Assembly: GCA_944383955.1 (NCBI GenBank)
Contig: CALWRP010000096.1
Coordinates: 1-49,478 of the forward strand
Source of the DNA: an uncultured Clostridia bacterium
GTDB taxonomy: Bacteria; Bacillota; Clostridia; Oscillospirales; Acutalibacteraceae
Length of the DNA stretch: 49,478 bases
Direction of reading: 5' to 3'
The notes under the pieces are model-generated. The model saw nothing but the letters and a program-made list of their open reading frames with translations, did not search any database and was not told the DNA's origin. This document shows positions 3,463 to 35,079 of the stretch, in pieces (the stretch's first letter is position 1; each line of letters starts with the position of its first letter). Both the position numbers and the translations under genes were made by a program.

Positions 3463-6093
3463 TTATGTCCCGCTGCCGCCGGATTCGCGGTTGGCGGCGG
3501 CAATCCCGGCCTCGTCGGCCTTGCGCATGTTCATCTCCAGCCACTGCTGGTAGGTAATCAGCACCTGGCGCGGCTTGCTGCCCTCGTGCGGGCCGACAAT
3601 GCCCATCTGCTCCATCTCGTCGATGAGGCGGCCGGCGCGGGCGTAGCCGAGGCGCAGGCGGCGCTGCAGGAGCGAGGTCGAGGCCTGGGCGGCCTCCACC
3701 ACCACCTGGATGGCCTCGGCCATCATCGGGTCCTGGTCGCTGCCCGCGTCCTCCTCCTTGCCGCGGCCCTTCTCGGCGACGGCGTTCTTCTCGATCTCGT
3801 CGATGATCGCCTCGTCGTACTCGTGCTCGGCGGCGGATTTGAGGAAGCTGGCGATGCTCTCGATCTCCGCGTCGCTGACGAAGCAGCCCTGCACGCGGAT
3901 CGGCTTCTGGCTGCCGATGGGGGCGAACAGCATGTCGCCGCGGCCGAGCAGCTTCTCGGCCCCGCCCATGTCGAGGATGGTGCGCGAATCGACCTGCGAG
4001 GAGACGGTGAGGGCGATGCGGCTGGGGATGTTGGCCTTAATCAGGCCGGTGATGACGTCCACGGACGGGCGCTGCGTGGCGATGACAAGGTGCATGCCGG
4101 CGGCGCGGGCCATCTGCGCGAGGCGGCAGATGGAATCCTCCACCTCGTTGGGCGCGGCCATCATCAGGTCGGAGAGCTCGTCCACGATGATGACGATCTG
4201 CGGCATGTGCAGCATCGGCTGGCCGTTGGCGTCCTCATAGTGGCAGGACTCGGCCAGGGCGTTGTAGCCCTGCAGGTCGCGCACGTTGTTCTCGGCAAAG
4301 ATGCGGTAGCGCTTGAGCATCTCCGTCACCGCCCAGCCGAGCGCGCCCGCGGCCTTTCTCGGGTCTGTGACGACGGGCACGAGCAGGTGCGGGATGCCGT
4401 TGTAGACGCCGAGCTCGACGACCTTGGGGTCGATCATCAGGAAGCGGACCTCCTCCGGCGAGCTCTTGTAGAGCATGCTGATGATCATGGAGTTGATGCA
4501 CACCGATTTGCCGGAGCCGGTGGTGCCCGCGATGAGCAGGTGCGGCATCTTCGCCAGGTCCGCCACCGTCACCTCGCCCGCGATATCGCGCCCGAGGGCC
4601 ACCGTCAGGCGGCTCTTGGCCGTCTGGAACTGGCTGCTCTCAATCAGGTCGCGCATGCGCACGGTGGAGGTGCGGCGGTTCGGCACCTCCACGCCCACGG
4701 CGGCCTTGCCGGGGATCGGCGCTTCGATGCGCACGCCGGTGGCGGCCAGGTTCATGGCGATGTCGTCCGAAAGGTTGGTGATCTTGCTGATCTTCACGCC
4801 GGGGGCGGGCTGCAGCTCATAGCGCGTGACGGTGGGCCCGCGGCAGATATCGACAATCTTCGTCTGCACGCCGAAGCTCTTGAGCGCCTCGACGAGCATG
4901 CGGCCGTTCGACTGCAGCTCCTCCGTGACGTCCGCCGCCGCGGGCTCCTTGGAGAGCTCCAGCATGGAGACGGGCGGGAAGCGGTAGCTGCCGTCGATGG
5001 GGGATTCCTCCGGCCGGGCGAAGGGCACGGGCGTGCCGATGGCCTCCGGCTCCCCGCCGCCCTGCGCGCTCTCCGCCGCGGGCTGCGCGCTCTGCTCCGC
5101 CCGGGGAATCTCGGGCAGCCTTTGCCCGGCGGCGATGGCCGCCACGGGGCTCGGCACGGCGGGCTCCCCGGCGGGGGCGGCCTTCTCCTTCTCCGCGCCC
5201 TTGTCCTTTTTGTCCTTGCCGGCGATGCCGAAGACCTTCTCGAGCTCCTCGAGCTTGTCGCTCTTCTGGCGCGGCTTGGGCGAGGACTGCACCGGGTGCT
5301 GCGGCAGCTCGTCGCGCTCGAAGGGGACGTCTGCGCTGCCGGGGATGCGCCCGCGCTCCATCCGGCGGCGGTCGCGGGCATGGCCGACAGCCGTCGCGGC
5401 GGCTCCGGCGGGCTTCGTCACCACGCGGAAGAGCTTGATGAGGCTCGTGCCGGTGAGAATCATCACCGCCACAAAGAGCAGCAGGATGGTGAAGATCTTC
5501 GCCCCGATGGAGCCGAAGGCGGCCACCAGCGGAATGCCGAGCAGGCCGCTGAAGAAGCCCGCCCCGCGGCGCAGCTGGCCGTCGCCGTAGAGGGCCACGA
5601 GCTCCTCCCAGAAGGAGACGTCGCGGAACTCGTTGGCGAAGACGTAAACGGCGGCGCACAGCAGGATGATGATAACGACCATGAGAATGATCTTCACGCT
5701 CATTTTGCTGTCGTGGCGGTCGAGGGCCGTCACCACCGCGATGTACAGAAGCAGCACCGGCCAGAAGATGGCGCACACGCCGAACAGGCCCATCAGCTGG
5801 CTGTGCAGCCAGGCCCACACGTTCTCGCCCTCAATCAGCACGAGGCAGCCCATGAGGATGGAGACGGCGAAGAGGACGACGGCCATCACCTGATTGCGCT
5901 GGCGGACGGCCTCGAGCTCCCGGAGGCGCTGCTGCTCCTTCTCCGCCTTTGTCATGGGCTTTTTGGCCCGGCTCTGCGCGGCGCGCGCGGGCTTTTTTGT
6001 CTGCCGCGCGCCCGCCTGGGCCGGTTTCCTTTCCGCGGACGGCTTTTTCGCCGTGGTCCGTTTGGTTTTTGATTTTGTTTTCTGTTCCGCCAT
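3463..6093 (-). CDS. ftsK: DNA translocase FtsK/SpoIIIE
   Basis: An 876-residue septal DNA pump that moves chromosome ends across the division or sporulation septum. A basic lysine-rich N-terminus is followed by four membrane segments (about residues 65-260), then an acidic and proline-rich linker, the alpha/beta RecA-like motor, and a C-terminal gamma winged helix (about the last 70 residues, starting near DPMMAEAIQVV) that reads polar DNA motifs. The Walker A motif GTTGSGKS is near residue 525 and the Walker B-like IVIIVDELSDL near 638. The frame continues 61 codons upstream, but ATG 6093 has a GGAGAGGGAG ribosome site. In Bacillus, spoIIIE is a neighbour of tepA, as here (about 1.2 kb away with uppP between). 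Whether it serves division, sporulation or both cannot be told from sequence. Confidence 0.95.
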   Translation of the reverse strand: MAEQKTKSKTKRTTAKKPSAERKPAQAGARQTKKPARAAQSRAKKPMTKAEKEQQRLRELEAVRQRNQVMAVVLFAVSILMGCLVLIEGENVWAWLHSQLMGLFGVCAIFWPVLLLYIAVVTALDRHDSKMSVKIILMVVIIILLCAAVYVFANEFRDVSFWEELVALYGDGQLRRGAGFFSGLLGIPLVAAFGSIGAKIFTILLLFVAVMILTGTSLIKLFRVVTKPAGAAATAVGHARDRRRMERGRIPGSADVPFERDELPQHPVQSSPKPRQKSDKLEELEKVFGIAGKDKKDKGAEKEKAAPAGEPAVPSPVAAIAAGQRLPEIPRAEQSAQPAAESAQGGGEPEAIGTPVPFARPEESPIDGSYRFPPVSMLELSKEPAAADVTEELQSNGRMLVEALKSFGVQTKIVDICRGPTVTRYELQPAPGVKISKITNLSDDIAMNLAATGVRIEAPIPGKAAVGVEVPNRRTSTVRMRDLIESSQFQTAKSRLTVALGRDIAGEVTVADLAKMPHLLIAGTTGSGKSVCINSMIISMLYKSSPEEVRFLMIDPKVVELGVYNGIPHLLVPVVTDPRKAAGALGWAVTEMLKRYRIFAENNVRDLQGYNALAESCHYEDANGQPMLHMPQIVIIVDELSDLMMAAPNEVEDSICRLAQMARAAGMHLVIATQRPSVDVITGLIKANIPSRIALTVSSQVDSRTILDMGGAEKLLGRGDMLFAPIGSQKPIRVQGCFVSDAEIESIASFLKSAAEHEYDEAIIDEIEKNAVAEKGRGKEEDAGSDQDPMMAEAIQVVVEAAQASTSLLQRRLRLGYARAGRLIDEMEQMGIVGPHEGSKPRQVLITYQQWLEMNMRKADEAGIAAANRESGGSGT

Positions 6094-27463: not shown

Positions 27464-28200
27464 AAAAGAAGAAGCTATCGTGGAACTGGACAAAAATCAT
27501 CTGGTGGTTCATTTTTATCACGCTTGCGGGCTCCGTCATCTTCATCTCCATTGCGATGGCGCTTGCTCCCTCGGAGCCGGATCCCGCAGAGCCGTACCGC
27601 CGCGTGAAGGGCGACTATGTGCTGATGCTGCTGCAATGCGTCGTCGGCGTCTTCGCGATGCTGCTGCCGAGCTTCCTCAAACGGAAGCTGCGGGTGGTGA
27701 TTCCCTCGAAGATGATGGTGCTCTTCGCCGTGTTTCTCTACTGCGCCATCTTTCTCGGCGAGGTGCGGGATTTCTATTACAATGTGCCGCACTGGGACAC
27801 GATCCTGCACACCTTCAGCGGAGCCATGCTCGGCTCGCTCGGCTTCTCGGTGATCAACTTCCTCAACCGCACCGACCGCGTTCCCATGAACCTGAGCCCG
27901 GCCTTTGTCGCCTTCTTCACGCTGTGCTTCGCCGTGTTCCTCGGCGTCGTGTGGGAGTTCTATGAGTTCACGGCAGACGGTATCCTGCACACGAACATGC
28001 AGAAGTTCGCCCTCGAGAGCGGCGAGCCGCTCGTGGGCCGGGCCGCCCTGATGGACACGATGAAGGATCTGATTGTCGACACCGTCGGGGCGCTTGTCAT
28101 GGCTATTGTCGGCTATATCTCCATCAAATACCAGAAGGGCTGGGTGGAAAAGCTGCAGCTTCGCCGCGAGAAAAAGCGCCCGAAGGAGAGCGGCGTCTGA
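27460..28200 (+). CDS. Multi-pass membrane protein, YjdF/DUF2238-like
   Basis: A 246-residue protein with about six hydrophobic segments. VPHWDTILHTFSGAMLGSLGF (a DxxxH-type block), GVVWEFYEFTADGI and DLIVDTVGALVMAIVGYI match the pattern of the YjdF/DUF2238 family of inner-membrane proteins, whose function is unknown. Both ends are basic (KKKKLSWNW and RREKKRPKES). The start overlaps the stop of the small membrane protein by ATGA. It is the last gene of the rsmA unit. No terminator is obvious before the strong promoter at 28239. Confidence 0.75.
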   Translation: MKKKKLSWNWTKIIWWFIFITLAGSVIFISIAMALAPSEPDPAEPYRRVKGDYVLMLLQCVVGVFAMLLPSFLKRKLRVVIPSKMMVLFAVFLYCAIFLGEVRDFYYNVPHWDTILHTFSGAMLGSLGFSVINFLNRTDRVPMNLSPAFVAFFTLCFAVFLGVVWEFYEFTADGILHTNMQKFALESGEPLVGRAALMDTMKDLIVDTVGALVMAIVGYISIKYQKGWVEKLQLRREKKRPKESGV

Positions 28201-28238
28201 GCCTCCGGGTAAAATCTTTTCCAGGAGGAGGAAACCGG

Positions 28239-28266
28239 TTGACATTATCCGGGGTTATGATATAAT
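28239..28266 (+). promoter_or_regulatory. Strong promoter of the structured RNA and polyamine leader
   Basis: A perfect TTGACA (28239-28244) and a perfect TATAAT (28261-28266) are 16 bases apart, the best consensus promoter in the window. Transcription is expected to start near 28273. I see no other promoter between here and speD at 28725. Confidence 0.92.
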
Positions 28267-28272
28267 TACAAT

Positions 28273-28641
28273 CGACATGTGATATGAGTGCCTACAGAGT
28301 ATCCATGCAAATCTTTCTTCGACCACCCGGCTTTCCGGCCGGGTCAAGGCCATACGGACAGCCGGGTCAACTGCCGAAGGGCGGCTTTGCCGCCGTTATT
28401 GATTGAGTGCTGCACTCAATTTTATAAGTTGGTTCCTTTATAACCGGTGCGCGATGCGTACATCAACTTGTAAAAAGGTCAATAAGAGTAGTAAAAGTAA
28501 GTATTTGCTATATAGACTCTGTATCGGGACAATCACAGGCCATGCCCTGCCCGCCGGCGCACCGCGCCCGCGCGGGGATTGCGATCGACTTGACGAATGA
28601 CAGGTGATGCACGCGAAAAAGCGCGCATTGCCTGTTTTTTT
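28273..28641 (+). ncRNA. Structured non-coding or leader RNA upstream of the polyamine operon
   Basis: About 370 nt run from a consensus promoter to a strong terminator, with no convincing ORF. A long-range closing helix pairs TACAGAGT (28293-28300) with ACTCTGTA (28516-28523) and, inside it, GCAAAT (28307-28312) with ATTTGC (28503-28508). Within lie hairpins ACCCGGC/GCCGGGT (28325-28344), GGCGGC/GCCGCC (28380-28394) and ATTGAGTGC/GCACTCAAT (28402-28420), plus AAGTTG/CAACTT (28426-28469). GCCGGGTCAA occurs twice (28338 and 28361). The stretch 28466-28523 is under one third GC in a GC-rich genome, a sign of constrained RNA. Size and lineage would suit a raiA-type RNA, but I cannot confirm that; it lacks RNase P, tmRNA, SRP, T-box and SAM-I hallmarks. 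It may be a free RNA, a cis-acting leader, or both. Confidence 0.82.
28600..28641 (+). terminator. Terminator at the end of the structured RNA
   Basis: ACAGGTGATGCACGC pairs with GCGCGCATTGCCTGT (wobble pairs included) around an A-rich loop and is followed by seven T residues. It ends 83 bases before speD. An upstream strand (28535-28545) could compete for its 3' arm. Confidence 0.93.
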
Positions 28642-28724
28642 GTTGCTTTCGGGGGATCGGTCCCCATATCACCGCGCCGCTTCCCGAGGAAGGAGGCGCG
28701 CAGGAAAGAGGAGAGGGCTTCGGC

Positions 28725-29483
28725 ATGGGAGAGAAACTGAAACTGTATGGGTTCAATAACCTGACAAAGGCGCTGAGCTTCAATATCTACGACGTCTGCT
28801 ACGCCAAGACGGCGCGGGAGCAGAAGGATTATATTTCCTATGTCGACGAGCAGTACAGCTCGCAGCGCCTGACGAAAATTCTGACGACGCTCACCGAGAT
28901 GATCGGGGCCAAGGTGCTCAACATCGCCCAGCAGGACTACGAGCCGCAGGGCGCGTCTGTGACCCTGCTCATCGCGGAGGGCTCCATGCTGCCCGCCGGC
29001 CAGACGCAGCTGGCTCATCTCGACAAGAGCCACGTGACGGTGCACACCTACCCGGAGTATCATCCGGAGACCTTCCTCGCCACCTTCCGCGTCGATATCG
29101 ACGTGGCCACCTGCGGGGAGATCACGCCGCTCTCGACGCTCGACTACCTCATCGGCTCGTTCGATTCCGATATCATCACCATGGACTACCGCGTGCGCGG
29201 GTTCACCCGCGACGTCAACGGCAAGAAGCTCTTCCTCGACCACCGCATCACGTCCATTCAGGACTACATCTCCGACGAGATCCTCCGCCGCTACGACGCG
29301 GTGGATATCAACGTCTACGAGTCGAACCTCTTCCACACGAAGATGATGCTCAAGGAGATCGACCTGCAGAATTACCTGTTCAAAACCGACGTTTATGAGC
29401 TGCCGCCGCGCACGCGGCTGAGCATCATGGACTCCCTGCGCCGCGAGATGATTGAAATTTTCAGCGGGCGCAATATCTATTGA
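28725..29483 (+). CDS. speD: S-adenosylmethionine decarboxylase proenzyme (SpeD, E. coli type)
   Basis: A 252-residue proenzyme that self-cleaves to make a pyruvoyl-dependent enzyme giving decarboxylated SAM, the aminopropyl donor for spermidine. Cleavage is expected between Lys101 and Ser102 in [17 protein letters not shown], so Ser102 becomes the pyruvoyl group. The length and motif match the longer E. coli-type class rather than the 120-residue Bacillus SpeH class. [20 protein letters not shown] contains the processing cysteine region. It is the first gene of the six-gene polyamine operon and follows an RNA terminator by 83 bases, which may control its expression. A GAGGAGAGGG ribosome site precedes the ATG. 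Confidence 0.95.
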
Positions 29484-29507: not shown

Positions 29508-30962
29508 TTGAAGGCTTTGCAGCAGGAGCGCGCGCCGATTTACGAGGCGCTTGAGCGCTTCCGCCAGATGCGCGTCGTCCCCTTTGACGTGCCCGGCCAC
29601 AAGCGCGGCCGCGGCAATCCGGAGCTGGTGCAGCTCCTCGGCGAGCAGTGCGTCTCCATGGACGTCAACTCCATGAAGCCGCTCGACAACCTCTGCCATC
29701 CGATCTCCGTCATCCGCGACGCCGAGCGCCTCGCAGCGGAGGCCTTTGGCGCGGCCAACGCCTTTCTGATGGTGGGGGGGACGACCTCCGCCGTGCAGAG
29801 CATGGTGCTCTCCGTCGCGAAACGCGGCGAGAAGATCATCCTGCCGCGCAACGTTCACCGCAGCGTGATGGGCGCGATGGTGCTCTGCGGCGCGGTGCCC
29901 GTCTACGTCAACCCCGAGTGCGACAGCGACCTCGGCATCCCGCTCGGCATGAGCGTCGCCGCCGTTGAGCGCGCGATCCGCGAGAACCCGGACGCGAAGG
30001 CCGTCCTCGTCAACAACCCGACGTACTACGGCGTCTGCTCCGACCTGCGCGCCATTGTGAGGCTCGCCCACGAGCACGGCATGCTCTGCCTTGCCGACGA
30101 GGCCCACGGCACGCATTTCTATTTCGGCGAGGGACTGCCCGTCTCCGCCATGGCGGCCGGGGCCGACATGGCCTCTGTCTCCATGCACAAGTCGGGCGGC
30201 AGCCTCACGCAGAGCTCGCTTCTGCTGACGGGCCCCGCCATGCAGGAGGGCCACGTCCGCCAGATCATCAATCTCACGCAGACGACGAGCGCGTCGTATC
30301 TTCTGCTCTCGAGCCTCGATATCTCCCGCCGCAACCTCGCGCTGCGCGGAAAATCGGACTTCGAGCGCGTCGTCCGCCTCGCCGAGTACGCCCGCCGGGA
30401 GATCAACGAGATAGACGGCTACTACGCCTTCTCCCGCGAGCTCGTCAACGGCGACAGCGTCTTTGATTTTGACGTCACGAAGCTTTCCGTCAACACCCTC
30501 GACGTCGGCCTCGCCGGGATTGAGGTCTACGATCTTCTCCGCGACGAATACGATATCCAGATCGAATTCGGCGACCTCGGCAACATCCTCGCGTATGTCT
30601 CCGTCGGCGACCGCCCGCGCGAGATCGAGCGGCTTGTCAGCGCGCTCTCTGAGGTGCGCCGCCGCTTCGGCCGCACGAAGGCCAACCTGATGGCTCAGGA
30701 ATACATCGATCCGCAGGTCGTCGTCTCGCCCCAGGATGCGTTCTACGCTCCCAAGGAGTCGCTTCCGCTGCGGGAGACCGAGGGCCGCGTGTGCAGCGAG
30801 TTTGTCATGTGCTACCCGCCGGGCATCCCGATTCTCGCCCCCGGCGAGCGCATCACCGCGGAGATCCTCGACTACATCGAGTACGCCAAAGAGAAGGGCT
30901 GCTCCATGACGGGGCCGGAAAACCCCGAGATTGAGCGCCTGAACGTTCTGAAGGAGGGATAA
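29508..30962 (+). CDS. speA: Short-form Orn/Lys/Arg decarboxylase (predicted arginine decarboxylase)
   Basis: A 484-residue PLP enzyme of the aspartate-aminotransferase-fold decarboxylase group (Bacillus SpeA-like). The PLP lysine is Lys228 in SMHKSGGSLTQSS; VPGHKRGRGNP (about residues 28-38), DEAHGTHF and the C-terminal YPPGIPILAPGE are family landmarks. The type does not by itself fix arginine, lysine or ornithine as substrate; the agmatinase gene two positions downstream favours arginine to agmatine. The start is a TTG at 29508 with AGGAGG nine bases upstream. It lies 24 bases after speD. Confidence 0.92.
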   Translation: MKALQQERAPIYEALERFRQMRVVPFDVPGHKRGRGNPELVQLLGEQCVSMDVNSMKPLDNLCHPISVIRDAERLAAEAFGAANAFLMVGGTTSAVQSMVLSVAKRGEKIILPRNVHRSVMGAMVLCGAVPVYVNPECDSDLGIPLGMSVAAVERAIRENPDAKAVLVNNPTYYGVCSDLRAIVRLAHEHGMLCLADEAHGTHFYFGEGLPVSAMAAGADMASVSMHKSGGSLTQSSLLLTGPAMQEGHVRQIINLTQTTSASYLLLSSLDISRRNLALRGKSDFERVVRLAEYARREINEIDGYYAFSRELVNGDSVFDFDVTKLSVNTLDVGLAGIEVYDLLRDEYDIQIEFGDLGNILAYVSVGDRPREIERLVSALSEVRRRFGRTKANLMAQEYIDPQVVVSPQDAFYAPKESLPLRETEGRVCSEFVMCYPPGIPILAPGERITAEILDYIEYAKEKGCSMTGPENPEIERLNVLKEG

Positions 30963-30965
30963 CCC

Positions 30966-31826
30966 TTGGATTTCTGGTTTTCGGAGATGCAGACGCCCAA
31001 CGTCAAGCTCTCCATCCGCGTCGACCACCAGCTTTACTCCGGGAAAAGCGAGTTCCAGCGCATCGACGTCTTCGAGTCCCCGGAGTTCGGCCGTTTTCTG
31101 ACGCTCGACGGCTACATGATGCTCACTGAGAAGGATGAGTTCATCTACCACGAGATGATCACCCACGTGCCGATGGCCGTCCATCCCAAGGTGCGCGACG
31201 TCCTCGTCATCGGCGCGGGCGACGGCGGCGTCATCCGCGAGCTGACGCGCTATCCCGAGATCGAGCACATCGACATGGCCGAGATCGATCCCCTCGTCGT
31301 GGAGGTTTGCAGAAAATACCTGCCGAAGACGGCCTGCCGCCTCGATGATCCGCGCCTGTCCATCTACTATGAGGACGGCGTGCGCTTCGTCCGCTCGAAG
31401 GAGAACCGCTACGACCTCATCATCGTCGACTCGACCGACCCCTTCGGCCCCGGCGAGGGCCTTTTCACCCGCGAGTTCTACGGCAGCTGCTTCAAGGCCC
31501 TGCGCGAGGACGGCATCATGGTGAACCAGCACGAGAGCCCGTTCTACGCCGCGGACGCCGCCGCCTGCCAGCGGGCGCACAAGCGGATTGTGGAGTCGTT
31601 CCACATCAGCCGCGTCTACCAGGCACATATCCCGACATACCCGTCCGGCCACTGGCTGTTCGGCTTTGCCTCGAAGAAATACCATCCGCTGCGCGACCTC
31701 AACGAAACGCAGTGGAACCTGCGCGGCCTCAAGTGCCGCTATTACACGACAACGCTGCACAAGGGCGCGTTCTACCTGCCCGCGTATGTGGAGGAGCTTT
31801 TGAAGGATGTTGAGACGCAATATTGA
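30966..31826 (+). CDS. speE: Spermidine synthase (aminopropyltransferase)
   Basis: A 286-residue aminopropyltransferase that moves the aminopropyl group of decarboxylated SAM to putrescine. The substrate-binding motif is VIGAGDGGVIRELTRY, followed by the catalytic DSTDPFGPGEGLF and the gatekeeping region YQAHIPTYPSGHW. The start is a TTG at 30966, three bases after the speA stop, with GGAGGG upstream; DFWFSEMQTPNV matches the normal N-terminus. Its 3' end overlaps the agmatinase by 20 bases. In some bacteria homologues act on agmatine to give aminopropylagmatine; the gene order here would permit that. Confidence 0.95.
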   Translation: MDFWFSEMQTPNVKLSIRVDHQLYSGKSEFQRIDVFESPEFGRFLTLDGYMMLTEKDEFIYHEMITHVPMAVHPKVRDVLVIGAGDGGVIRELTRYPEIEHIDMAEIDPLVVEVCRKYLPKTACRLDDPRLSIYYEDGVRFVRSKENRYDLIIVDSTDPFGPGEGLFTREFYGSCFKALREDGIMVNQHESPFYAADAAACQRAHKRIVESFHISRVYQAHIPTYPSGHWLFGFASKKYHPLRDLNETQWNLRGLKCRYYTTTLHKGAFYLPAYVEELLKDVETQY

Positions 31827-32658
31827 GGTCTTCATGGCCTGTGACAAGGAGGAGGGGGAGGCGCGCACCGTGCTGTTCGGCGCGCCGTTCGACTGCACCA
31901 CCTCCTACCGCCCCGGCACGCGCTTCGGCAGCGGAACCATCCGCCGCGAGTCGTTCGGGATTGAGACATACAGCCCATATCAGGATAAGGATCTGCTCGA
32001 CAGCGCCGTCATGGATATCGGCGACCTCGAGCTCTGCCTCGGGGACGCCTCAGCAGCCCTCTCCCAGATTGAGGAGACCGCAGAGGAAATCCTCGCAGCG
32101 GGGAAGCGCCCGTTCCTGCTCGGCGGCGAGCACCTCGTCACCCTGGGAGCGTTCCGGGCCGCCGCACGCCGGTACCCGGAGCTGCATGTGATTCATTTTG
32201 ACGCGCACGCCGACCTTCGCGACGATTATCTCGGCGCGAAGCTCTCGCACGCCTGCGTGCTGCGCCGCTGCTGGGAGCTCGTCGGAGACGGGCGGATCTT
32301 CCAGTTCGGCATCCGCTCCGGCGACCGAGAGGAGTTCGCCTGGGGCAGGGAGCACGTGACGACCCACCGCTTCGACTTTGAGGGCCTGGAGCAGGTTGTG
32401 GAGTCCCTCTCCGGGAAGCCGGTCTACTTCACCGTCGACCTCGATGTGCTCGACCCCTCGGTCTTCCCGGGCACGGGAACGCCCGAGCCGGGCGGCGTGT
32501 CCTTCGACGCGCTGCGCCGCGCCGTCACGCTCGTGTGCAGCCGCGCGAACGTCGTGGCCTGCGACGTCAACGAGCTCAGCCCGCCGTATGATCCCAGCGG
32601 GATCTCCGCGGCGGCCGCCTGCAAGACAGTCCGCGAGATGCTGCTCGCATTGGAATAA
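31807..32658 (+). CDS. speB: Agmatinase (ureohydrolase family)
   Basis: A 283-residue binuclear manganese enzyme that hydrolyses agmatine to putrescine and urea. Metal ligands are visible in GGEHLVT, HFDAHADLRDDY and YFTVDLDVLDPSVFPGTGTPEPGG (DxD). Its position directly after speE, with a 20-base overlap, means it could also act on N1-aminopropylagmatine, as in the Thermus-type route. The start at 31807 is supported by AAGGATG context inside speE. An internal ATG at 31834 is possible but would shorten the normal N-terminus. Confidence 0.93.
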   Translation: MLRRNIEVFMACDKEEGEARTVLFGAPFDCTTSYRPGTRFGSGTIRRESFGIETYSPYQDKDLLDSAVMDIGDLELCLGDASAALSQIEETAEEILAAGKRPFLLGGEHLVTLGAFRAAARRYPELHVIHFDAHADLRDDYLGAKLSHACVLRRCWELVGDGRIFQFGIRSGDREEFAWGREHVTTHRFDFEGLEQVVESLSGKPVYFTVDLDVLDPSVFPGTGTPEPGGVSFDALRRAVTLVCSRANVVACDVNELSPPYDPSGISAAAACKTVREMLLALE

Positions 32659-32686: not shown

Positions 32687-33946
32687 ATGAGCAAGGTATT
32701 GATCATCGGCTGCGGCGGCGTCGCCTCCGTCGCCATCCACAAGTGCTGCCAGAACAGCGAGGTCTTTTCTGAAATCTGCATTGCGAGCCGCACGAAGTCG
32801 AAGTGCGACGCCCTCAAGGCAAAGCTCGAGGGCACGACGAAGACGAAGATCACCACCGCGCAGGTGGACGCCGACCATGTGGAGGAGGTCTGCGCGCTGA
32901 TTCGGGAATACCAGCCCGATCTGGTGATGAATATCGCCCTGCCGTATCAGGATCTGACCATCATGGACGCCTGCCTCGCGTGCGGCGTCAACTATCTGGA
33001 TACCGCCAACTACGAGCCCGAGGATCTCTCCGACCCTGCGTGGCGCGCGCAGTATGAGAAGCGCTGCCGGGAGGAGGGCTTCTCCGCCTACTTCGACTAT
33101 TCCTATCAGTGGGCGTACAAGGAGAAATTCGAGAAGGCCGGCCTCACCGCTCTGCTCGGCACCGGCTTCGACCCCGGCGTGACGCAGGCCTATTGCGCCT
33201 ATGCCCAGAAGCACCTGTTCGACGAGATCGACACCATCGACATTCTCGACTGCAACGGCGGCGACCACGGCTATCCCTTCGCCACCAACTTCAACCCGGA
33301 GGTCAACCTGCGCGAGGTGTCCGCCCCCGGCTCCTACTGGGAGAACGGCCATTGGGTGGAGATCCCCGCCATGAGCATCAAGCGCGAGTACAACTTCAAG
33401 GAGGTGGGGCAGAAGGACATGTACCTGCTCCATCACGAGGAGATCGAGTCCCTCGCGAAGAACATTCCCGGCGTCAAGCGCATCCGCTTCTTCATGACCT
33501 TCGGCCAGAGCTATCTCACCCACATGAAGTGCCTCGAGAATGTCGGCATGCTCTCCACCGAACCGGTCGAGTTTGAGGGCCACAAGATTGTCCCGATTCA
33601 GTTCCTGAAGGCGCTGCTGCCGGACCCGGCCTCCCTCGGTCCGCGCACCGTCGGCAAGACGAACATCGGCTGCATCTTCACCGGCCGCAAGGACGGCAAG
33701 GAGAAGACGGCCTACATTTTCAACGTCTGCGATCATCAGGAGTGCTATCGGGAGGTGGGCTCGCAGGCCATCTCCTACACCACCGGCGTGCCCGCCATGG
33801 TGGGTGCGATGATGCTGCTCACCGGCAAGTGGTCGAAGCCCGGCGTGTACACGGTGGAGGAGTTCGATCCCGATCCGTACATGGACGCGCTGAACAAGTG
33901 GGGCCTGCCCTGGCAGCTGGATGAGAACCCCACGCTGGTGGAGTGA
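32687..33946 (+). CDS. Carboxy(nor)spermidine dehydrogenase/synthase, saccharopine dehydrogenase family
   Basis: A 419-residue NADPH-dependent enzyme of the Lys1/saccharopine dehydrogenase fold. VLIIGCGGVASVAIHKC is the nucleotide-binding motif, followed by family blocks YLDTANYEPED, GTGFDPGVTQAYCAYA and INCxxGxHGYPF-like (actual DCNGGDHGYPFATNFNPE). It joins aspartate semialdehyde to putrescine or diaminopropane by reductive condensation to form carboxyspermidine or carboxynorspermidine. ATG 32687 has GGAGGAAGG upstream. The stop overlaps the next start by one base (TGATG). The pairing with the next gene makes the assignment secure. Confidence 0.92.
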   Translation: MSKVLIIGCGGVASVAIHKCCQNSEVFSEICIASRTKSKCDALKAKLEGTTKTKITTAQVDADHVEEVCALIREYQPDLVMNIALPYQDLTIMDACLACGVNYLDTANYEPEDLSDPAWRAQYEKRCREEGFSAYFDYSYQWAYKEKFEKAGLTALLGTGFDPGVTQAYCAYAQKHLFDEIDTIDILDCNGGDHGYPFATNFNPEVNLREVSAPGSYWENGHWVEIPAMSIKREYNFKEVGQKDMYLLHHEEIESLAKNIPGVKRIRFFMTFGQSYLTHMKCLENVGMLSTEPVEFEGHKIVPIQFLKALLPDPASLGPRTVGKTNIGCIFTGRKDGKEKTAYIFNVCDHQECYREVGSQAISYTTGVPAMVGAMMLLTGKWSKPGVYTVEEFDPDPYMDALNKWGLPWQLDENPTLVE

Positions 33947-35079
33947 TGACGCCGGTTTCCCAGCCGCTCCGCACCCCGTATTTTCTCGTCGATGAGGCGC
34001 GGCTGACAAAGAATCTGAAAATTCTGCGGGACGTACAGGAGCGCGCGGGCTGCAAAATTCTGCTCGCGCAGAAGGCGTTCTCGATGTTCTCCGTTTACCC
34101 GCTGCTGCGGCAGTATCTGGCAGGCAGCACGGCGAGCGGCCTGTATGAGGCCCGCCTCGGTCATGAGGAGTTTGGGGGAGAGACGCACGTCTTTTCCCCG
34201 GCCTACCGGGAGGACGAGTGGGACGAGCTGCTCCGGTACGCCGACGACATCGTCTTCAATTCCCCGGCCCAGGTGCGGCGCTACGCCGCCCGCGCGCGGG
34301 CGGCGGGCAAGTCCGTCGGCCTGCGCGTGAACCCGGAGCACTCCACACAGGAGGGCCACGCGATCTACGATCCGTGCGCGCCCGGATCGCGCCTCGGCAC
34401 GACGCTCGCCAACTTTGACGAGAGCGTTCTGCCTCTGCTCGACGGCCTGCATTTCCACACGCTCTGCGAACAGAATGCCGACGCGCTCGAGGAGACGGTG
34501 GCCGCGTTCGAGAAAAAGTTCGGTTCCCATCTTTCGCGGATGAAGTGGCTCAACCTGGGCGGCGGTCACCACATCACGCGGGAGGACTACGACGTCGGGC
34601 GGCTGATCCGCATCGTGTGCCGTCTGCGGGAGACGTACGGCGTGGAGGTGTACCTCGAGCCGGGCGAGGCCGTCGTGCTCAACGCGGGCTTCCTCGTCAC
34701 CAGTGTGCTCGAGACGCTGCACAATGGAATAGACATCGCCATTCTGGATGCTTCCGCCGCCTGCCACATGCCGGACGTGATCGAGATGCCTTACCGCCCG
34801 CCTCTGCGCGGGGCGGGGCAGCCCGGAGAGCGTGCGCACACCTTCCGCCTCGGCGGGCCGACGTGCCTGGCCGGAGACGTGATAGGCGACTACTCCTTCG
34901 ACGCGCCGCTGTGCGAGGGCGACCGCCTCGTCTTTGAGGACATGGCCCTCTACACGATGGTGAAGACGAACACCTTCAACGGCATGCCGCTGCCAGCCAT
35001 TGTCTGGCGGGATAAAGACGGCGGCCTGTTCCTCGTGCGTTCCTTCGGCTACGAGGATTTCAAATCGCGCCTCTCCTGA
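33946..35079 (+). CDS. nspC: Carboxynorspermidine decarboxylase
   Basis: A 377-residue PLP enzyme of the alanine-racemase fold that decarboxylates carboxyspermidine to spermidine (or carboxynorspermidine to norspermidine). The PLP lysine lies in ILLAQKAFSMFSVYP (about residue 43), typical of this family. NLGGGHHITREDYD binds the PLP phosphate, YLEPGEAVVLNAG is a further landmark, and GPTCLAGDVIGDY carries the catalytic cysteine. ATG 33946 overlaps the stop of the dehydrogenase, so the pair is translationally coupled. It is the last gene of the operon. Confidence 0.95.
   Translation: MTPVSQPLRTPYFLVDEARLTKNLKILRDVQERAGCKILLAQKAFSMFSVYPLLRQYLAGSTASGLYEARLGHEEFGGETHVFSPAYREDEWDELLRYADDIVFNSPAQVRRYAARARAAGKSVGLRVNPEHSTQEGHAIYDPCAPGSRLGTTLANFDESVLPLLDGLHFHTLCEQNADALEETVAAFEKKFGSHLSRMKWLNLGGGHHITREDYDVGRLIRIVCRLRETYGVEVYLEPGEAVVLNAGFLVTSVLETLHNGIDIAILDASAACHMPDVIEMPYRPPLRGAGQPGERAHTFRLGGPTCLAGDVIGDYSFDAPLCEGDRLVFEDMALYTMVKTNTFNGMPLPAIVWRDKDGGLFLVRSFGYEDFKSRLS

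Follow-up and report, generated by a model that had tools for sequence, protein, structure and literature searches.

A structured RNA leader ahead of a polyamine operon in the window (the whole stretch of 49,478 nucleotides analysed here) is the 5' leader of that operon and a full-length member of an RNA family with the Rfam RF02440 core. We consider it probably a riboswitch-type transcription attenuator of the operon, and a candidate polyamine sensor that would act in the OFF direction. Comparison of homologues shows a conserved structure, a terminator, a covarying antiterminator and a consistent gene context. An RNA switch had already been proposed by a sequence-only reading of this DNA; the structured, attenuating leader holds up and extends to the whole family, but the specific antiterminator proposed there (28535-28545) is not conserved.

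The leader, its relatives and their genes

The promoter of the leader (Table 1) matches the TTGACA-N16-TATAAT consensus at every position, and a site with at least 9 of 12 matches lies 5' of the leader in 89 of 96 non-redundant homologues, against 18.2 expected from mononucleotide shuffles. Two promoter-like sites occur in 28150-28800 on the two strands combined (expectation from shuffles, 0.7), and the + strand shows none in the gap between terminator and speD (28642-28724). Leader and terminator together (28278-28645) fold with a z score of -6.8, equalled by none of 100 shuffles, and in the minimum free energy (MFE) structure the domain is closed by TACAGAG/CTCTGTA (28293-28299 / 28517-28523) with the terminator formed. 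The consensus promoter, the closed multi-hairpin domain followed by a terminator and the lack of a further promoter ahead of speD had all been claimed from the sequence, and each is borne out. When all hairpin lengths were tried, a terminator was present in 44 of 50 sampled homologues and in 11 of 50 shuffled sequences (27 and 3 of 50 in a control restricted to even hairpin lengths); 16 of the 149 homologues had none by the criteria set, short sequence explaining some of these. The layout of promoter, leader and intrinsic terminator ahead of the first gene is that of an attenuator.

Table 1. Features of the leader and of the polyamine operon in the window.
Feature	Position	Strand	Evidence
Leader promoter, sigma-70 type (TTGACA-16-TATAAT)	28239..28266	+	consensus 12/12; homologue promoters
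P1 5' strand (TACAGAG...GCAAATC)	28293..28313	+	MFE; swap test
RF02440 core	28320..28377	+	67.1 bits; covariation
P2	28321-28324/28365-28368	+	two-sided changes in 2/5 pairs
P3	28325-28330/28339-28344	+	two-sided changes in 6/6 pairs
Inner GGC/GCC	28348-28350/28361-28363	+	two-sided changes in 1/3 pairs
P4 hairpin	28381..28393	+	two-sided changes in 5/5 pairs
P5 5' strand, partner 28478-28484	28397..28403	+	100% paired in 48 sequences, 0 double changes
P6 hairpin	28405..28417	+	two-sided changes in 3/4 pairs
P7 5' strand TTTATAAG, partner 28467-28474 (CTTGTAAA)	28421..28428	+	98.7% paired, 0 double changes
P8 hairpin (GGT/ACC)	28431..28445	+	two-sided changes in 3/3 pairs
P9 hairpin GTGCGC/GCGTAC	28447..28461	+	window MFE only; outside pair counts
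Predicted antiterminator strand GCGTACATCAACTTGT	28456..28471	+	14 pairs, -17.9 kcal/mol with terminator 5' arm
P1 3' strand (ATTTGCT...CTCTGTA)	28503..28523	+	MFE; swap test
Intrinsic terminator with U tract	28600..28641	+	hairpin -23.7 kcal/mol, then U run
Terminator 5' arm ACAGGTGATGCACGC	28600..28614	+	hairpin finding; leader-pairing and window-coordinate analyses
speD, adenosylmethionine decarboxylase	28725..29483	+	TIGR03331, 397.6 bits, above cut-off
Orn/Lys/Arg decarboxylase family gene (LDC)	29508..30962	+	best NCBIfam matches decarboxylases, all below cut-off
speE, spermidine synthase / polyamine aminopropyltransferase	30966..31826	+	NF002010, TIGR00417 above cut-off
speB, agmatinase	31807..32658	+	TIGR01230 above cut-off
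Carboxynorspermidine synthase-like gene	32693..33946	+	NF043000, E 4e-125, below its cut-off
nspC, carboxynorspermidine decarboxylase	33943..35079	+	TIGR01047 above cut-off

A covariance-model search of Rfam, recommended by the sequence-only reading, matched a known class: RF02440 (SpF59_sRNA, ldcC RNA), typed in Rfam as an sRNA gene, at 28320-28377 with 67.1 bits against a gathering cut-off of 37.2 and over the whole model (1-54). The 54-nt model covers the P2/P3 core alone, whereas the full leader is about 230 nt long plus the terminator. A match to an unrelated class away from polyamine genes had been named as evidence against the switch; RF02440 was matched, yet its homologues adjoin polyamine genes. 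The rival identification with raiA RNA, a large structured RNA of Gram-positive bacteria and in that respect like the leader, found no support, as the leader gave no Rfam raiA match at the gathering score or at E 1. Membership of SAM-I was likewise rejected, there being no match of the leader to a SAM family at either threshold.

Of 391 genomes sampled from the class, 41 contain RF02440; for the phylum the figure is 18 of 398 (the two samples overlap), and for the family to which one Lactococcus genome belongs it is 22 of 79. Scanning species genomes with a pattern yielded at least 117 loci; hosts named among those listed are Paenibacillus, Bacillus, Neobacillus, Acidaminococcus, Phascolarctobacterium, Faecalibacterium, Blautia and Lactococcus, together with metagenome-assembled genomes (MAGs) labelled Synergistaceae and Spirochaetes. 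The leader of about 230 nt occurs in Bacillota and in some otherwise labelled MAGs. Our 149 curated homologues were each identified through the RNA core, independently of their genes. They comprise 105 of the listed pattern-scan loci, 30 from the class search (of 41 matches, 11 being left out) and 14 from the phylum search (without L160), and some loci occur twice, from two sources, for example L029/L039. Twelve pattern loci were set aside: seven chance-like ones (L036, L045, L080, L138 and L142 by eye; L089 and L102 by the feature filter and host alone), four that have the core but were ended by the stretch limit (L031, L075, L087, L141), and L110, a real variant missed by the filter and later shown to lie upstream of speD. 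A CUUGU strand is present in 137 of the 149, and 96 of the 137 form the non-redundant set, from which 48 sequences were picked by hand for alignment, odd ones being omitted.

In 145 of the 149 homologues a gene for making or importing polyamines begins no more than about 700 bases downstream of the core, the other four ending too soon, so that the downstream genes share one metabolite, as is looked for in a riboswitch. Genes were called by tblastn with six window proteins and one PotA, the downstream gene being the nearest match to these seven reference proteins, so that a small ORF may intervene (L115 has one). By this measure the nearest gene is LDC in 47, potA in 41, speD in 36, the carboxynorspermidine synthase-like gene in 20 and speE in one; whether speD follows in other genomes had been posed as a check, and it does so in those 36, but elsewhere its place is taken by LDC, potA and the others. 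The spermidine/putrescine ATPase model NF043075 is matched above its cut-off by the PotA of L021, and is the best match, below cut-off, of that of L146. One Lactococcus genome (G775) has two copies, L163 and L184, one ahead of a decarboxylase and the other ahead of potA; genomes G840 and G834 likewise have two RF02440 matches each. Among the Streptococcaceae, 22 of 26 loci passed the position filter, with potA downstream in 16 and LDC in four (20/22); of the remainder, L168 ends early and L183 has no match to a reference gene. In L170-L174 of this family, additional sequence separates the terminator from the gene, and the potA match starts some 370 to 990 bases further on.

Some leaders depart from the common plan. 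Three from rumen Lachnospiraceae, L040 (core near 3923), L053 and L035 (minus strand), lack the P5-P8 part and keep the core; L040 and L053 have a rewired terminator/antiterminator pairing, UAACAUC with GAUGUU, while in L035 the terminator finder gave none and a hairpin is visible by eye. L086 and L110 show no clear terminator at the usual place and carry a different 3' module (GCTTTGGCTTT...GTGGGCGTGA); these two leaders perhaps control translation instead.

The conserved domain and its alternative pairing

The leader has a ACGGACAGCCGGG core. In the 48 aligned sequences the RNAalifold consensus has 41 pairs, with 97.3% of cells paired and two-sided changes in 20 of the 41 pairs, and none of 500 shuffles reaches any of five measures; these pair counts are favourably biased, since the structure was derived from the very alignment on which it is scored. 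There are 35 invariant columns, which extend from the core through UUAUUGAUUGAG, UAUAAGUUGGU and ACUUGUGAAACGGUCAAUAAGAG. Covariation of the helices, another check that had been proposed, is thus seen in about half of the pairs, but P5 and P7 are too conserved to covary: being near-invariant, they show no double changes, and P5 is a conserved rather than a covarying helix. For P1, native strands out-pair strands swapped between homologues in 80 of 95 (Wilcoxon p 2e-14). A near-invariant pair of motifs, GAGU (28486-28489) and ACUC (28516-28519), could form a local hairpin that would exclude P1; as a switch against P1 this candidate was set aside as unsupported by covariation, native exceeding swapped pairing in only 51 of 96 (p 0.65), although pairs so nearly invariant may still form it.

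The strand 28456-28471 would have two partners. In the closed state it supplies the 3' strands of P9 and P7, and in the open state it is predicted to pair with the terminator 5' arm, in the window as 28456-28459/28611-28614, 28461-28464/28606-28609 and 28466-28471/28600-28605. In 106 of 122 homologues it is the strand ending in ACUUGU that, of the whole leader, pairs best with the terminator 5' arm, and the energy peak is sharp at that strand, with a shuffle p<=0.05 in 105. Mean arm/strand energies are -15.4 kcal/mol for native pairs, -12.3 for arms swapped between genomes and -7.9 for shuffled arms; native pairing surpasses the mean swap in 73 of 86 non-redundant homologues (p 6e-12), and with swaps restricted to one gene class it does so in 68 of 81 (p 2e-10). 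Arms are alike across the RNA family, so the native arm is among the top 5% of swaps in only 24 of 122. By eye, arms frequently resemble CAAGUGAUGUG, a similarity not required of a terminator by itself. Each of the 13 positions immediately 5' of CUUGU shows at least four pair types among 74 non-redundant homologues. Judged from these comparisons, 28456-28471 with the terminator 5' arm is a conserved alternative pairing, one that would break P7 and P9.

The 74 homologues used for pair types, folding and energies had already been selected for antiterminator pairing, and the following figures are to be read accordingly. When transcripts that end in the terminator loop are folded in the ordinary nested way, the antiterminator forms in 4 of 74 and P7 is kept in 64 of 74. 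The strand is enclosed by P1 and P5, which makes the antiterminator a pseudoknot unless both helices open. With a pseudoknot allowed, a model adopted after the nested-folding outcome had been seen, the antiterminated state averages 6.1 kcal/mol below the closed domain and is negative in 73 of 74, loop cost being omitted. In Streptococcaceae the pairing beats shuffles (p<=0.05) in 12 of 21 loci, not including the pneumococcus-type L180, L181 and L183, although a 9-pair leader/arm duplex exists in L180. An antiterminator that is conserved and mutually exclusive with the terminator, as an attenuator needs, is thus found, more weakly in Streptococcaceae.

A different antiterminator had been read from the window sequence, with ACAGGCCATGC (28535-28545) pairing with the terminator 3' arm GCATTGCCTGT (28625-28635). 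The quoted strands are present, and direct reading gives 10 pairs in 11 positions with a mismatch at C28541, but the pairing is not conserved. Among the 113 of 122 homologues whose linker is at least 20 bases long, the best duplex of any linker strand with the 3' arm has a mean energy of -9.3 kcal/mol, compared with -9.1 when linkers are shuffled, and p<=0.05 is reached in 6. The pairing beats shuffles in the window and in L024 of the same family (1 of 60 shuffles equal in each); L005, another relative in that family, has no such pairing. As linker pairing across homologues is no better than shuffled, we rejected 28535-28545 as the conserved antiterminator.

A candidate polyamine switch and its alternatives

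In the mechanism that we propose, the closed state would have the P1-P9 domain shut and 28456-28471 held in P7 and P9, so that the terminator hairpin (28600-28636) could form and transcription would halt before speD. In the open state the strand would be freed from P7 and P9 and pair with 28600-28614, preventing the terminator and letting transcription run on. By stabilising the closed domain, a polyamine end product would shut down synthesis and import alike, and modest stabilisation by ligand could tip the balance towards termination. Here we infer direct ligand binding, the identity of the ligand and the OFF direction; our first guess for the ligand would be spermidine, with putrescine next. 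The "sRNA SpF59" would then be the terminated product of such a leader.

Polyamines, SAM and decarboxylated SAM had been suggested as ligands from the sequence. Since the same RNA also precedes potA, polyamines fit best among them, but SAM and decarboxylated SAM less well. A riboswitch for a relative in the pathway (SAM, decarboxylated SAM, arginine, agmatine or carboxyspermidine), rather than for a polyamine end product, is quite unlikely in our judgement. The operon in the window does include speD and speE, whose enzymes use SAM and decarboxylated SAM; however, potA follows the RNA in 41 of 149 homologues, uptake and synthesis operons have end products in common, and no SAM riboswitch family was matched. 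The sensor of the same attenuator might also be a protein or another trans factor on the conserved core, the RNA not itself binding polyamine, which we hold to be unlikely. A large leader with 35 invariant columns in 48 sequences would be as fitting for a protein site as for an aptamer, and the terminator and antiterminator evidence would be identical, but the RNA occurs in many lineages (those listed include Paenibacillus, Bacillus, Acidaminococcus, Faecalibacterium and Lactococcus), so that a shared binding protein would need an equal spread.

Two further explanations were weighed. As F59/SpF59 the RNA has been filed as a free-standing sRNA acting in trans, with a terminator that just ends the RNA and neighbouring genes that are incidental: F59 stands among the pneumococcal sRNAs in lists of 2012 and 2025, and the Rfam gene type is sRNA. 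Against this, a polyamine gene lies just downstream in 145 of 149 homologues that were found by the RNA core alone, and the terminator arm covaries with a leader strand, which an insulating terminator would not need; we think the trans explanation very improbable, and the comparative evidence favours cis over trans action. Attenuation by a leader peptide, in which translation of a short ORF picks the fold, strikes us as extremely doubtful. In the window, where leader ORFs were listed, there are several short ones, the longest ending inside the leader having 65 and 51 codons, but the helices persist although relatives differ by many insertions and deletions, a pattern that speaks against a conserved reading frame. 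We prefer the polyamine-sensing attenuator.

Pneumococcal F59 and known polyamine riboswitches

The pneumococcal RNA F59/srn235/Spd_sr49 (RF02440) has the same core as the leader. F59 lies between SP0915 and SP0916 (PMC3395615), and SP_0916 is an arginine decarboxylase (PMC7531197); by name and place, F59 would be the RNA behind the Rfam name SpF59. A 2025 survey still has srn235/F59/Spd_sr49 among putative sRNAs, with a stretch of 327 bases (PMC12323649), and srn235 has a Tn-seq lung phenotype (fitness 0.05; PMC3395615). From core to terminator end there are 265 bases in three pneumococcus-type loci, which, with a 5' part of unmapped length, would come near the 327-base size. Where RF02440 as filed is a 54-nt P2/P3 core and an sRNA, we propose cis action for a leader of about 230 nt plus terminator.

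Published expression data bear on the direction of control. In pneumococcus without potABCD, putrescine and spermidine drop, and qRT-PCR has speA (SP_0916) up 16.9-fold and speE up 14.4-fold, while RNA-seq of the same loss has speA/speE unchanged (PMC8540371). In RNA-seq the transport inhibitor AMXT 1501 raised SPD0809, 0811, 0813, 0814 and 0815 by 1.4 to 1.9-fold, and qRT-PCR gave rises of 2.4 to 3.3-fold for three of these genes (PMC10887117); SPD0809 is presumably the D39 counterpart of SP_0916. With DFMO, published pneumococcal data have synthesis genes lowered. In S. agalactiae, potABCD is induced by spermidine and spermine (PMC8744998); the gaps given there before potA (48 nt) and murB (143 nt) seem to us insufficient for the leader. 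The pneumococcal data are mixed and partly fit an OFF switch, and leave the leader's own responsibility unproven.

As described in PMC10853860, the spermidine riboswitch is a SAM-I variant with 13 representatives in seven named genera and metagenomes. Like the present leader, it lies upstream of polyamine genes (including ldcC, speE and speB) and has a terminator/antiterminator platform, through which spermidine switches expression off; unlike it, the window leader has no match among the Rfam SAM families at E 1. The present RNA family is found in many more genomes than that account gives for the SAM-I-derived riboswitch. The potE and odc1 motifs of PMC8632094 are likewise candidate RNA elements ahead of polyamine-related genes; potE is described there from Veillonella and environmental samples only and as having no obvious expression platform, and odc1 as a hairpin with a pseudoknot in alpha-proteobacteria. 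Within the open-access literature (subscription literature was outside our scope), we found no paper that treats the RF02440 RNA as a cis-regulator or riboswitch.

The authors of the spermidine riboswitch regard its members as rare variants and more polyamine riboswitch classes as surely still undiscovered (PMC10853860). On balance we lean towards a reading in which RF02440 forms the core of a second natural class, much wider in distribution than the SAM-I-derived one and of unrelated structure. That class would control polyamine synthesis and import across Bacillota through an internal helix set against the terminator 5' arm, SpF59 being its terminated product. As a widespread candidate with a clear expression platform and a near-exclusive gene context, it would make direct polyamine sensing by RNA testable in many bacteria. 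If the proposal is true, pneumococcal srn235 and its Tn-seq lung phenotype would be reassigned to cis control of the arginine decarboxylase/spermidine operon.
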